From Gloeomargarita lithophora Alchichica-D10 (GTDB lineage: Bacteria; Cyanobacteriota; Cyanobacteriia; Gloeomargaritales; Gloeomargaritaceae): a stretch of 64,000 nt of DNA. Both the position numbers and the translations under genes were made by a program. Location: positions 1,609,988 to 1,673,987 of the forward strand of contig NZ_CP017675.1 of the NCBI RefSeq assembly GCF_001870225.1, read 5' to 3'. Under the pieces are notes generated by a model that was not told where the DNA came from, did no database searches, and saw nothing but the letters and a program-made list of their open reading frames with translations. This document shows, one piece after another, positions 19,770 through 59,670 of the stretch; position 1 is the stretch's first letter; each line of letters starts with the position of its first letter.

Positions 19770-19872
19770 TATAGCTAAGTAGGGTAAGGTTGTCGCCTCA
19801 AGATTCTGGGAAACCAATGCGGGGCTGTGCCCTGCGACCCATATTATGTCAACCTTTGCGTGTTTAACTATA
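19770..19872. repeat. family C interspersed repeat
   Basis: Ends TATAGCTAAG and TTTAACTATA form an imperfect inverted repeat (TATAG C/T TAA). The interior GTAGGGTAAGGTTGTCGCC...GATTCTGGGAAACCAATG matches the copy at 15713. The TATAG terminus is like those of family B and of the IS630 element at 35755. It borders the acquired-looking oxidoreductase gene. Confidence 0.7.
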
Positions 19873-19909
19873 ACCGACCAAACTGAAATGTTCCGGTGCA
19901 GTGCGGTTG

Positions 19910-20914: not shown

Positions 20915-21034
20915 GGATACCTCTATTTATTTGAACCAACAAAAAATCCCACCGCTGGAAAGTAGAGATTTTGAAGAACCAAGGGCGGGGGGTGCCCCCC
21001 TGCGACCGCTAATTTTCAATTTATAGAGGTGCCC
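20915..21034. repeat. family A interspersed repeat
   Basis: Inverted ends GGATACCTCTATTTAT and TTTATAGAGGTGCCC flank the core GAACCAAGGGCGGGGGGTGC, whose G-run and following C-run form a hairpin. The copy abuts a family B copy at 21037. Confidence 0.8.
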
Positions 21035-21036
21035 TG

Positions 21037-21137
21037 TATAGCAATCCCATCCGATTAGCGAACAGATATTCAGAAGAACCAAGTACGGGGGCGGTGCCCC
21101 GGCGACCGCTGTTCAAAATTCAATTAGGATTGCTATA
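21037..21137. repeat. family B interspersed repeat
   Basis: Begins TATAGCAATCCCATC and ends ATTAGGATTGCTATA. The core ACGGGGGCGGTGCCCCGG is a perfect-stem hairpin. It is the same family as the dated insertion at 55342. Confidence 0.8.
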
Positions 21138-25158: not shown

Positions 25159-25268
25159 GGACACCGCTAAAAATAGGTCGCAGGGGCACCGCCCCCGTAC
25201 TTGGTTCTGGACAATACCAGCATTCCAGCGAGATGACTTTCTGCTAGTTCAAATAAATAGAGGTGTCC
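25159..25268. repeat. family A interspersed repeat
   Basis: GGACACCGCTAAAAATAGG at the left and AAATAAATAGAGGTGTCC at the right are inverted ends. The core GGTCGCAGGGGCACCGCCCC is on the opposite orientation to the copy at 20915. It lies between the methylase gene and opcA. Confidence 0.82.
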
Positions 25269-30859: not shown

Positions 30860-31880
30860 CCTGCCCCCGGAACAGCACCCGGCATGGTTGCAACAACTGC
30901 GGCGGCGGGAAGGCACCTGGGTGGATTGGGGGCAAACCTGCCAACACCTGCGTAAAGCCGGGTTAAGCTCCGAAGTGATTTTTGAGGAAACCGGCCTAGA
31001 ACCCAGCACCCAAAATCAACTGGTCGTCGCCAGCCAGGTTTTTCACTCCCTGCATCACGCCCAGGTGCAGGATTATTTTCAGACCGAAGGGAGTCATTTG
31101 CTCTACGAATTACGGCTGTTGTCCCAGGCACAACGGCTGGCCTGCGCCGGGTTTGTCGCCGAAAAATGCTTGGACGTTACCGCCACCCGGGAAGTCGTCA
31201 AAGCCGTCAAAGAATTGAGCCAATATCGTGTCCCCCCAGCCTTTAGTGACCATCCGGGGGATGCGGTGGCTTTTCAATGCTGGCGACTCCTGCGGCAAAA
31301 ACCCCCCAGCCCGGAGCGGGTGCGGTTGCTATCCAGGGGCTTGAGCTTTGCCCATACAGAACCAGCACGCACGGCATTGGAACAACTTTTAGACCCTACC
31401 AGCGGCGGGGAATCCCTGCCCTCGCCCCCCCGATTGCCCTGGTATCGGTTGGAATCCGCCCTGGAGCAACCCCTGATCCTCACCCTGGCGGGGGAATTGC
31501 CCTTATGCGAAGAACGGTGGGCGCAGACTGCCATGGCCGCACCCCAGCCGCCCTTTGGCACCGTTACTGGTATCTCTAGGGTGGTGGCCGTACCTGGATG
31601 GCCGATTTTACGCTCCGCCCAGGCACCGCTGGCCTTGCTCACCCAGCAACTACCGGGGGAAATTGGCATCGCCGAACCCGTATTGCTGGTGGTGGATCGC
31701 CTGGATACCACCTGGCAAGTAGAACATTATTTTTTAGTCGCAGAAGCTGGGCAGATTACCCTCAAGTGGTTCCCCAATGAACCGGATTTACCCTTACTGG
31801 GGCGGTTGATATTAGCCCTGCGGCCACCCAAAATGCTCGACCCCGCACACCTCACCGAACCCTGGCAAATTGAGGAGTAG
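30852..31880 (+). CDS. raf1: Rubisco accumulation factor Raf1
   Basis: Chaperone that assembles Rubisco large subunits after folding. The protein is 342 aa from the ATG at 30852, overlapping the recA end. The N-terminal alpha domain shows [18 protein letters not shown] and [21 protein letters not shown]; the C-terminal beta domain follows after about residue 190 ([24 protein letters not shown]). Length and layout are those of cyanobacterial Raf1. Its TAG stop (31878-31880) reads straight into the first base of a family A repeat, so the repeat inserted at the very end of the gene. Confidence 0.93.
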
Positions 31881-31999
31881 GACATCTCTATAAATTCAGA
31901 ATTAGGGGTCGCAGGGGCACCGCCCCCGTCCCTGGTTCTCGGTAATACTGGCATTCCAGCGAGATAACTTTCTGTTGGTTCAAATAAATAGAGGTGTCC
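31880..31999. repeat. family A interspersed repeat
   Basis: GGACATCTCTATAAATTC at the left and CAAATAAATAGAGGTGTCC at the right are inverted ends. The core GGTCGCAGGGGCACCGCCCC is a hairpin. The left end shares its first G with the raf1 stop codon. Confidence 0.82.
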
Positions 32000-33584: not shown

Positions 33585-33681
33585 GGGCACCTCTATAAAT
33601 TGCAAATTAGCGGTCGCAGGGGGGCACCCCCCGCCCCTGGTTCTGTGAATTTTTTGTTCGTCAATCGTGTCATATTGCTAT
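33585..33681. repeat. hybrid A/B interspersed repeat
   Basis: The left end GGGCACCTCTATAAATTG matches family A and the right end CGTGTCATATTGCTAT matches family B. The core GCAGGGGGGCACCCCCCGCC carries a longer G6/C6 stem variant. It lies in the 270-base gap upstream of ilvB. Confidence 0.78.
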
Positions 33682-35754: not shown

Positions 35755-36704
35755 TAGTTATTTCAATTAAATATGAGACAACAGATGAAAGAAGGATATA
35801 AAATAGGAAGAGTAGGTATTGTGGAGGGATTTGAAGATGTGTTACAGCCTAGATTTACGAAAGAAGGTAATGAGTTTTATTGAGAACGGGAATAGTATCA
35901 CGAAAGCGGCAAAAGTATTTAACGTCGGCAGGGCAACGGTGTACCGGTGGCTGGATAGAGCGAACCTAGAGCGGGTCAGAGTAGAGAGAAGGAAACGGAA
36001 AATAGATATTGCTAAACTGAATCAAGATGTAGAACAGCACCCGGATAAGACTTTAAGAGAAAGAGCCAAAGAATTTGGGGTAGTACCAAGCTCAATATGC
36101 TACCAATTGAAGCGGCTGAAAATCACGAGAAAAAAAACAGTTGCGGTATCGAGAAAGAGATCATGAAGCTCGGATTATTTACTATCGGACATTGAGAGAA
36201 TTGATAAAAATTTATTAAAAGTCTAGTATTCATAGACGAGACTGGGTTTGAGAAGTTTGTAAGTCTAATTTATAGCTGGGCTAAACGAGGAAAAAAGATT
36301 TACGGAGAGCGTAGCGGACGGCGGTGTAAACGAGAGAATTTAGTAGCAGGTCGGCGTAAACATAGCAAGGATTTAATTGCGCCGATGTTATTTGAGGGTA
36401 GTTTAGATGCGGTGACTTTTGAGCTATGGTTAGAGGTACATTTATTACCAGCATTAACGAGATTATCAATGTTAATTATGGATAATGCACCGATTCATCG
36501 TAAGAACCGCATTCGAGAATTAGCGCAAGTAAAGGGGCATATTGTATTATTTTTACCAACTTATTCGCCCGACCTCAATGATATTGAGCATGACTTTAGG
36601 GCATTAAAGAGACTGAGGATGTACACTCCCGCTGGTACCACTATTGATAAAGTCATTTGCAATTATTGCCCAAGATAATGTCTCATTCTAATCCGAAACA
36701 ACTA
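35755..36704. mobile_element. IS630-family insertion sequence (decayed)
   Basis: Element of about 950 bp. The left end TAGTTATTTCAATTAAATAT and the reverse complement of the right end TAGTTGTTTCGGATTAGAAT form an imperfect inverted repeat of about 26 bases continuing into ATGAGACA. Both ends are flanked by TA, the target site of this family. The encoded transposase is frameshifted (see 35837-36678). It has inserted into the 3' part of a DUF5615 gene. Confidence 0.88.
35837..36678 (+). pseudogene. IS630-family transposase, frameshifted
   Basis: An N-terminal helix-turn-helix part (MCYSLDLRKKVMSFIENG, SITKAAKVFNVGRATVYRWL) ends at 36166. At an A8 run near 36128-36135 the frame changes; the downstream frame reads LRYRERDHEARIIYYRTLREL and then stops near 36220. 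An extra base restores a third frame that carries VFIDETGFEKF, LIMDNAPIHRKN and NDIEHDFRALK, i.e. the DDE triad. The first shift could be programmed slippage of the kind known in IS630 elements; the second cannot, so the gene is dead. Confidence 0.85.
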
Positions 36705-43282: not shown

Positions 43283-43504
43283 GGACACCTCTAAAAATAG
43301 GTCGCAGGGGCACCGCCCCCGTATTTGGTTCTCGATAATATGAGCATCCTAGCGAGATGATTTTCTGTTGGTGTGAATAAATATGGCAATTCTATTTGAA
43401 TTAAGAATCAGCGGTCGCAGGGGGGCACCCCCCGGACTTGATTCTCAGTAATACCGGCATTCCAGCGAAATAACTTTCAACTGGTTCGCATAAATAGAGG
43501 TGTC
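43283..43504. repeat. two joined family A repeats
   Basis: A first unit (GGACACCTCTAAAAATAGG to GTGAATAAATA, near 43382) runs straight into a second (ATGGCAATTCTATTTGAATT to CATAAATAGAGGTGTC). The first core is GGGGCACCGCCCC; the second is the G6/C6 variant GGGGGGCACCCCCC. The inner junction resembles a family B end, suggesting one element inserted in another. This occupies most of the 374-base gap before ctaA. Confidence 0.75.
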
Positions 43505-50071: not shown

Positions 50072-50233
50072 CCAAAAATCTCATCGCTGGAATGCAGAGA
50101 TTACGGAAAATTATACACCGCAGGTGCTTTTGGGGCGGGGGCTGCGCCCCTGCGACCGCTGTTCTCATAGCGTTAGCGATAGCGTGCCGTAGGCATTAGC
50201 GTGGCGTAGCCATACCCAATTAGGATTGCTATA
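50047..50233. repeat. hybrid A/B repeat replacing the middle of an IS5 transposase
   Basis: Left end GGACATCTCTATTTATTTG (family A), core GGGGGCTGCGCCCCTGCGACC, inserted GCGTTAGCGATAGCGTGCC and GGCGTAGCC motif, right end AATTAGGATTGCTATA (family B). Transposase-coding sequence lies on both sides. Confidence 0.75.
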
Positions 50234-54963: not shown

Positions 54964-55269
54964 ATGGTACAACGCTGGACAGATGAGATGTTGGATCGGC
55001 AAGCTGAAGAAAACACCCGTGCCTTTCGGGAGTTGCGGGAGGCCATTGGTCGTCTGGAAACCCAAGTTGCCGCCAATACCCAAGCTGTTGCCGCCAATAC
55101 CCAAGCCATTGCCGCTAATACCCAAGCCATTGCCGAACTGCGGGAGGGACAGGCCATGATGATGCAAATTGTCATGCAACAGCAAACCAATATCCAAGAA
55201 TTGCGCCAGGATACCCGCCGGATTTTGGATGCCCTGATCAACCCACCGCCAATGAACGGGCATCGCTAA
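54964..55269 (+). CDS. tandem coiled-coil protein, copy 1 (three-heptad form)
   Basis: Protein of 101 aa, unknown family. It opens MVQRWTDEMLDRQAEENTRA, has three seven-residue units of the type VAANTQA, then IAELREGQAMMMQIVMQQQT and a conserved end (ALINPPPMNGHR). The whole is predicted as one long coiled coil. It is the first of three tandem near-identical genes that differ only in the number of the seven-residue units (3, 2, 1). The preceding 40 bases, including TTTGGAGAGCCGTCCCG before the ATG, are repeated before each copy. Confidence 0.8.
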   Translation: MVQRWTDEMLDRQAEENTRAFRELREAIGRLETQVAANTQAVAANTQAIAANTQAIAELREGQAMMMQIVMQQQTNIQELRQDTRRILDALINPPPMNGHR

Positions 55270-55341
55270 TCATTTACTGGGAAATATAGCGTTTTTTGTT
55301 TGCGTATGATTTGGCATCAAATGGCACTGGAAATTGAACTA

Positions 55342-55438
55342 TAGCAATATGACACGATTTACGAACAGAAATTCCACAGAACCAAGGGCGGGGGCGGTGC
55401 CCCTGCGACCGCTATTCTAAACCCAATTAGGATTGCTA
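55342..55438. repeat. family B repeat with visible TA target duplication
   Basis: The spacer after gene copy 1 reads GAAC-TA-TAGCAATATGACACG...GGATTGCTA-TA-GGTTTAG, whereas the otherwise identical spacer after copy 2 (near 55840) reads GAAC-TA-GGTTTAG. The 97-base element therefore inserted at TA and duplicated it. Core ACGGGGGCGGTGCCCC-like hairpin (here GGGGGCGGTGCCCC) is present. Confidence 0.93.
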
Positions 55439-55484
55439 TAGGTTTAGTAAACTTAGGGTAATCACTATTTGGAGAGCCGTCCCG

Positions 55485-55769
55485 ATGGCACAACGCTGGA
55501 CAGATGAGATGTTGGATCGGCAAGCCGAAGAAAACACCCGTGCCTTTCGGGAGTTGCGGGAGGCCATTGGTCGTCTGGAAACCCAAGTTGCCGCCAATAC
55601 CCAAGCTGTTGCCGCTAATACCCAAGCCATTGCCGAACTGCGGGAGGGACAGGCCATGATGATGCAAATTGTCATGCAACAGCAAACCAATATCCAAGAA
55701 TTGCGCCAGGATACCCGCCGGATTTTGGATGCCCTGATCAACCCACCGCCAATGAACGGGCATCGCTAA
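55485..55769 (+). CDS. tandem coiled-coil protein, copy 2 (two-heptad form)
   Basis: Protein of 94 aa, virtually identical to copy 1 apart from one missing VAANTQA unit and MAQRW in place of MVQRW. Same upstream ribosome-site region. The downstream spacer (55770-55885) is the unoccupied form of the one carrying the family B repeat. Confidence 0.8.
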   Translation: MAQRWTDEMLDRQAEENTRAFRELREAIGRLETQVAANTQAVAANTQAIAELREGQAMMMQIVMQQQTNIQELRQDTRRILDALINPPPMNGHR

Positions 55770-55885
55770 TCATTTACTGGGAAATATAGCGTTTTTTGTT
55801 TGCGTATGATTTGGCATCAAATGGCACTGGAAATTGAACTAGGTTTAGTAAACTTGGGGTAATCACTATTTGGAGAGCCGTCCCG

Positions 55886-56149
55886 ATGGCACAACGCTGG
55901 ACAGATGAGATGTTGGATCGGCAAGCTGAAGAAAACACCCGTGCCTTTCGGGAGTTGCGGGAGGCCATTGGTCGTCTGGAAACCCAAGTTGCCGCCAATA
56001 CCCAAGCCATTGCCGAACTGCGGGAGGGACAGGCCATGATGATGCAAATTGTCATGCAACAGCAAACCAATATCCAAGAATTGCGCCAGGATACCCGCCG
56101 GATTTTGGATGCCCTGATCAACCCACCGCCAATGAACGGGCATCACTAA
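55886..56149 (+). CDS. tandem coiled-coil protein, copy 3 (one-heptad form)
   Basis: Protein of 87 aa with a single VAANTQA unit, otherwise as copy 2, ending NGHH instead of NGHR. It is the last of the tandem set, and the spacer homology stops right after it. It is convergent with the MscS gene, 17 bases away. Confidence 0.8.
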   Translation: MAQRWTDEMLDRQAEENTRAFRELREAIGRLETQVAANTQAIAELREGQAMMMQIVMQQQTNIQELRQDTRRILDALINPPPMNGHH

Positions 56150-59571: not shown

Positions 59572-59670
59572 TCGCAATTCTAATTGAATTTGGAACAACG
59601 GTCGCAGGGGCACCGCCCCCGTCCCTGGTTCTGCAAAGTTTCTGTTCGTAAATCGTCTCATATTGCTATA
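59572..59670. repeat. family B repeat
   Basis: ATCGCAATTCTAATTGAATT at the left and CGTCTCATATTGCTATA at the right are family B ends. The core GGTCGCAGGGGCACCGCCCC is present. The right end is followed directly by GAGGTATCC, an A terminus, suggesting insertion into an older A copy. The rest of the 481-base gap 59298-59778 shows no gene. Confidence 0.75.

Follow-up and report, generated by a model that had tools for sequence, protein, structure and literature searches.

Nezha, studied by Zhou et al. in 2008, is a cyanobacterial MITE that is said to be flanked by TA and tied to an IS630-type element; the repeats considered here, termed family B, are likened to it by description only, and not by sequence. 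It is referred to as active in those passages of PMC10969869 and PMC3733652 that cite it. In the case of ISY100 (ISTcSa), an IS630 family element of Synechocystis, the transposase alone suffices in vitro and 30 bp ends are enough (PMC2170065), and a mini-ISY100 delivery system has been published (PMC6400869). ISY100 resembles family B in being cyanobacterial, in targeting and duplicating TA, and in having short imperfect terminal repeats, which have been reported as the likely minimum requirement in cis (PMC2170065). However, it is autonomous, with a single 282 aa ORF and 24 bp repeats, whereas the candidate parent of family B is 1147 bp long and has two overlapping ORFs and different ends. 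A further 147 short MITEs are found in Anabaena sp. 90, some of them within disrupted genes; these were classed without an IS of matching ends in the genome, whereas for family B such an IS was identified (PMC3542288). TIME elements of Tn3 origin are mosaic, non-autonomous elements assembled from miniature parts (PMC4133298); they belong to the Tn3 family, whereas here one core is common to families with unrelated ends. Searches of the literature on the ends of family B returned nothing.

The window, a 64,000 nt stretch of the Gloeomargarita lithophora Alchichica-D10 genome (G000:C1:1609988-1673987, from a genome of one contig), contains three tandem copies of a gene on the forward strand, at 54964..55269 (101 aa), 55485..55769 (95 aa) and 55886..56149 (88 aa). 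Their products carry a repeated AANTQA motif, the number of which varies, and the protein encoded by copy 1 had no match in Pfam or NCBIfam. At 55336-55447, the spacer following copy 1 reads GAAC-TA-[97 bp]-TA-GGTTTAG, whereas that following copy 2 reads GAAC-TA-GGTTTAG, the lone TA at 55840..55841 being the empty site. The insert is a 97 bp family B element of subfamily 1 on the forward strand (55342..55438; TAGCAAT...ATTGCTA), bounded by the two halves of a target-site duplication at 55340..55341 and 55439..55440, as read at the base level and from the flank count of the family; the gain at spacer 1 is thus 97 bases and one TA. The first-pass annotation had placed the insert correctly to the base, and the single TA of spacer 2 near 55840. 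It also described the spacers as otherwise identical, which on alignment holds for everything outside the insert except one substituted base (AACTTAGGG versus AACTTGGGG). Its word 'prove' stands for the insertion itself, by virtue of the occupied and empty pair; the IS630 route we infer from the shared ends, the TA target and the TA duplication.

The terminal repeats of this element, TAGCAATATGACACGATTTACGAACAG on the left (55342..55368, forward strand) and TAGCAATCCTAATTGGGTTTAGAATAG on the right (55412..55438, reverse strand), are imperfect, being perfect over only 7 bp (9 bp with the TA) and matching at 16 of 27 positions. Family B therefore combines short TIRs with a hairpin core, and is not one long palindrome. 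The 31-base core, GGTCGCAGGGGCACCGCCCCCGCCCTTGGTT (55380..55410, reverse strand), is common to two further MITE-like families, A and C, and contains a hairpin at 55391..55403 with arms GGGGC (55391-55395) and GCCCC (55399-55403), the innermost pair of which alternates between C-G, G-C and T-G among copies. An Rfam scan of the locus gave only chance-level matches, far below gathering scores and none of them on the element.

When the 3,049,282-base genome was searched with the 97-mer, seven of the 53 matches listed were at 100%. From stretches picked by similarity, 72 full-length family B elements, each complete with core and two ends, were assembled, an incomplete catalogue, such that the counts given here describe the collected set and are not a census. 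Exactly 97 bp is the length of 52 of these. Once the flanks were scored, TA was found on both sides of every one of the 71 elements in which they are readable, the opposite of a family in which most copies lack it, and this agrees with the earlier claim that the insertion duplicated its TA; the seventy-second has TA on its right side, the bases on its left being unread (N). When positions offset by 3, 5, 8 and 12 bases were scored as a control, TA occurred in only one to seven of the 72. Runs of N adjoin some copies (L015, L023, L042 and L047), so that in a few cases the flanks are hidden. Around the target the sequence reads (A/C)TA(G/T): the TA is preceded by C or A in 66 of 71 cases and followed by G or T in 67. 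Subfamilies of identical copies number 20, seven (including the window copy) and five members, and mark recent bursts. A second full family B element lies in the window at 21039..21135 on the forward strand; it is 97 bp long, belongs to an older subfamily and has TA on both sides. There is also a strand bias, of 16:4 in the largest subfamily and of 45:25 in the first catalogue (p ~0.01-0.02, on a non-random sample).

Several other features of the family emerged from the same catalogue. An element and its duplicated TA together span 99 bp, or 33 codons, and in-frame insertion into genes, as with the Rickettsia palindromic elements, was considered; it was rejected as a rule because, of the 45 listed open frames that best span an insertion, just two (at 1883486 and 1755480) remain open across it. 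The latter lies near the end of its frame, whilst at G000:C1:1883486 the frame is open through the element for 222 codons, 33 of them added, and the site is empty in the sister genomes G002 and G004. Near-identical paralogous genes (L167) carry family B elements of different subfamilies, in opposite orientations, at the same TA (G000:C1:284950 and 287427), the outcome either of separate insertion events at a single site or of a replacement. Elements also form head-to-tail arrays, at G000:C1:2479475-2479862 (L047) and near 74.0, 370.8 and 1609.4 kb, some of which have a 97-base period with no additional TA between units; these are not simply accounted for by the chemistry of single insertions. 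Longer elements (1128002, 1266795, 2327139, 2326932 and others) have extra small repeats of the GCGTTAGCCTGCGTGCCGTAGGCA type at two fixed places, which we take to resemble the small dispersed repeats of cyanobacteria.

The genome carries three DDE_3 loci. One, at L035:1044-2190, is a TA-flanked IS of 1147 bp, present as one full-length copy, with TAGCAATCCTA forming its terminal inverted repeats. An A10 run marks the overlap of its two ORFs (164 and 193 aa), the second of which matches Pfam DDE_3 (PF13358) above the cut-off. Between them the ORFs also cover NCBIfam transpos_IS630, one half each, with scores below the cut-off that applies to a whole protein. The two, an HTH ORF and a DDE ORF, are probably joined by frameshifting at the A10 run. 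IS copies or fragments are found in G000, G002 and G004, all of which are rich in the MITE; no transposase match was found in G003 or G006, where MITE matches number one and zero respectively, whilst G005 has MITEs and no IS was found in its assembly, which is 83% complete. Relatives of the IS in Nostoc have the same 1147 bp length and ends of the TAGCAATCCTAAATGAG type. In G002, a copy of the IS630 parent (L137 839-2084) is interrupted by its own MITE, the interrupted IS being TA-flanked, and a second, partial IS copy in G004 likewise holds an inserted element.

The ends of the MITEs track those of the IS genome by genome, with 25 of 25 bases matching between the two in G002 and 24 of 25 in G004. 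For the window subfamily, up to 21 of 25 positions of the right end agree with the IS ends of sister genomes and 18 with the IS of its own genome; the left end matches weakly, at 14-16 of 25. By comparison, random TA sites gave a mean of 7.9 for the best of six ends. The first-pass annotation had identified a short, non-coding, hairpin-cored element as an IS630/Tc1-mariner MITE, and the same genome indeed contains a TA-flanked element that has the same ends and encodes an IS630 transposase. Family B has the features of a MITE, being short, non-coding and multicopy, with terminal inverted repeats, TA duplication, empty sites and ends shared with an IS; it also has those of the IS630/Tc1-mariner group, namely insertion at a TA that is duplicated, and a DDE transposase within a TA-flanked element of the same ends. 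Since the TA-flanked parent IS shares its ends, and the relatives in sister genomes and Nostoc concur, family B can with high confidence be assigned as an IS630/Tc1-mariner MITE, very likely moved by a transposase of the L035 type.

A TA-inserting MITE might instead have been moved by some other transposase, encoded by another IS630-type locus or by a relative since lost. A TA target is common to Tc1/mariner-type elements, two further DDE_3 loci are present in the genome, and the resemblance of the window subfamily's left end to those of the L035 IS is loose. However, the ends of the other two IS630-type loci are unlike those of family B, starting GTGCTG... and TAGTTATTTC..., and TAGCAATCCTA ends are found only in the L035 type among the three; we consider this alternative unlikely. 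The second of these loci lies in the window itself (35755-36704; ends TAGTTATTTC and TAGTTGTTTC, around 950 bp) and has matches to PF01710 and DDE_3, but is apparently broken, as its transposase is split over separate frames.

By analogy with ISY100, the preferred L035-type transposase is expected to act on the MITE ends, and movement of the MITEs by it, including cut-and-paste chemistry, is what we infer. The two-ORF IS630 transposase, encoded by the 1147 bp TAGCAATCCTA-ended IS, would recognise the similar ends of the MITE; production of the whole protein from the G000 copy would require a frameshift at the A10 run. It would then mobilise the MITE into a TA within the (A/C)TA(G/T) context, with repair duplicating the TA. 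That 20 identical copies exist despite a cut-and-paste mechanism might be explained by, for example, transposition from replicated DNA.

For 20 insertions, the flanking sequences were fused across a single TA and used as queries against the remaining six genomes of the genus. Empty orthologous sites were found as gapless alignments across the junction at three insertions other than that of the window, namely 1118929 (G004), 1883486 (G002 and G004) and 2950808 (G002, G004 and G005); the junctions of 2508085 and 1308737 were also spanned by matches, but with small gaps. Among the 30 genomes searched, the element had no match beyond its own genus, and a search of the plasmid collection gave none either. 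G002 and G004 carry the gene tandem without the window element, and several of the tandem spacers are empty there, which accords with the original proposal that the insertion postdates the tandem.

At a single locus, clean excision leaving one TA would have the same appearance as insertion, and spacer 1 of G004 and spacer 3 of G002 do contain a family B element at the seemingly homologous TA (window 55339-55342), either of which might suggest that the occupied spacer is ancestral and that spacer 2 lost its element through exact deletion or excision. However, those elements (approximately L153 3168-3265 and L154 1110-1226), the first base of which is G and not T, belong to another subfamily; that of the window copy was not seen in the sister genomes, the best match there being 87%, whilst the window copy is identical to six copies at unrelated loci. 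With the sisters also retaining empty tandem spacers, and uninterrupted sites elsewhere, the occupied spacer was not found to be the ancestral state in relatives, and its loss from spacer 2 is very improbable. The most likely history is one of insertion, with subfamily 1 having entered spacer 1 once the tandem had formed and later than the last homogenisation of spacers 1 and 2. The short G-rich hairpin core and the single Y1_Tnp gene in the genome might suggest a REP-type palindrome mobilised by a RAYT-like (Y1) transposase, but this is scarcely credible given the strict TA duplication, the 97+2 bp insert and the defined terminal repeats; by eye, the listed core sequences also lack an evident GTAG or CGTC tag at the foot of the hairpin, the hallmark of most tagged REP families (PMC3733652).

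The hairpin core extends beyond family B. Its pattern, GGTCGCAGGG-loop-CCC...TTGGTT, has 302 matches in G000, 325 in G004, 273 in G002 and 51 in G005, with 17, five and one in the other three genomes and none for the reversed control. Where the flanks of cores were read, the ends are mostly of types B, A (GGACACCTCTA) or C (TAGCTAA), with a remainder that is degraded or unclassified. Mixed-end hybrids of the A-B, B-A and C-B types also occur. Family B has TAGCAAT ends and duplicates TA, and family C has TA flanks, whilst most of the family A copies that were read by eye have an apparent 4 bp duplication. For the parents of families A and C, the analysis yielded a list of terminal sites and assigned no transposase. 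Other core-bearing repeats of these three families in the window, with approximate ends, are at 19773-19873, 20915-21034, 25159-25268, 31880-31999, 43283-43490, 50148-50231 and 59574-59668, and an A-B hybrid is at approximately 33585-33680. Within the window, a stretch selected without regard to similarity, a core lies next to most ends of types A and B, though several ends, as well as two or three core-like sites, are isolated.

Comparison of families A and B gives similarities of 0.93 for the 5' part of the core and 0.82 for its 3' part, as alike as within A, although these figures are partly built in because the search pattern fixes part of the core; the flanks have 0.37 and 0.43, and at the level of sequence it is this contrast of core with flanks that is informative. 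Of 53 distinct cores, 45 retain the innermost pair of the stem, compared with a mean of 27 in shuffled sets, none of 2000 shuffles reaching 45 (a test in which relatedness between cores is ignored). A tentative, on balance doubtful, reading is that the core of around 31 bases is an independent module within three families of unrelated ends, passed between them by recombination and kept for some use to the elements or to the host.

Family B is of the ordinary kind of genome parasite, with dozens of copies, for which the before-and-after evidence is unusually clean. In a genus with few sequenced genomes, it provides an anchored case of a bacterial MITE, with base-exact empty sites, strict TA targeting, recent bursts of identical copies and a candidate source of transposase. 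The sharing of the core is the observation most worth following, as it frames the question of how new MITEs form, whether through the exchange of ends that flank a common centre or through a selected hairpin being captured repeatedly.
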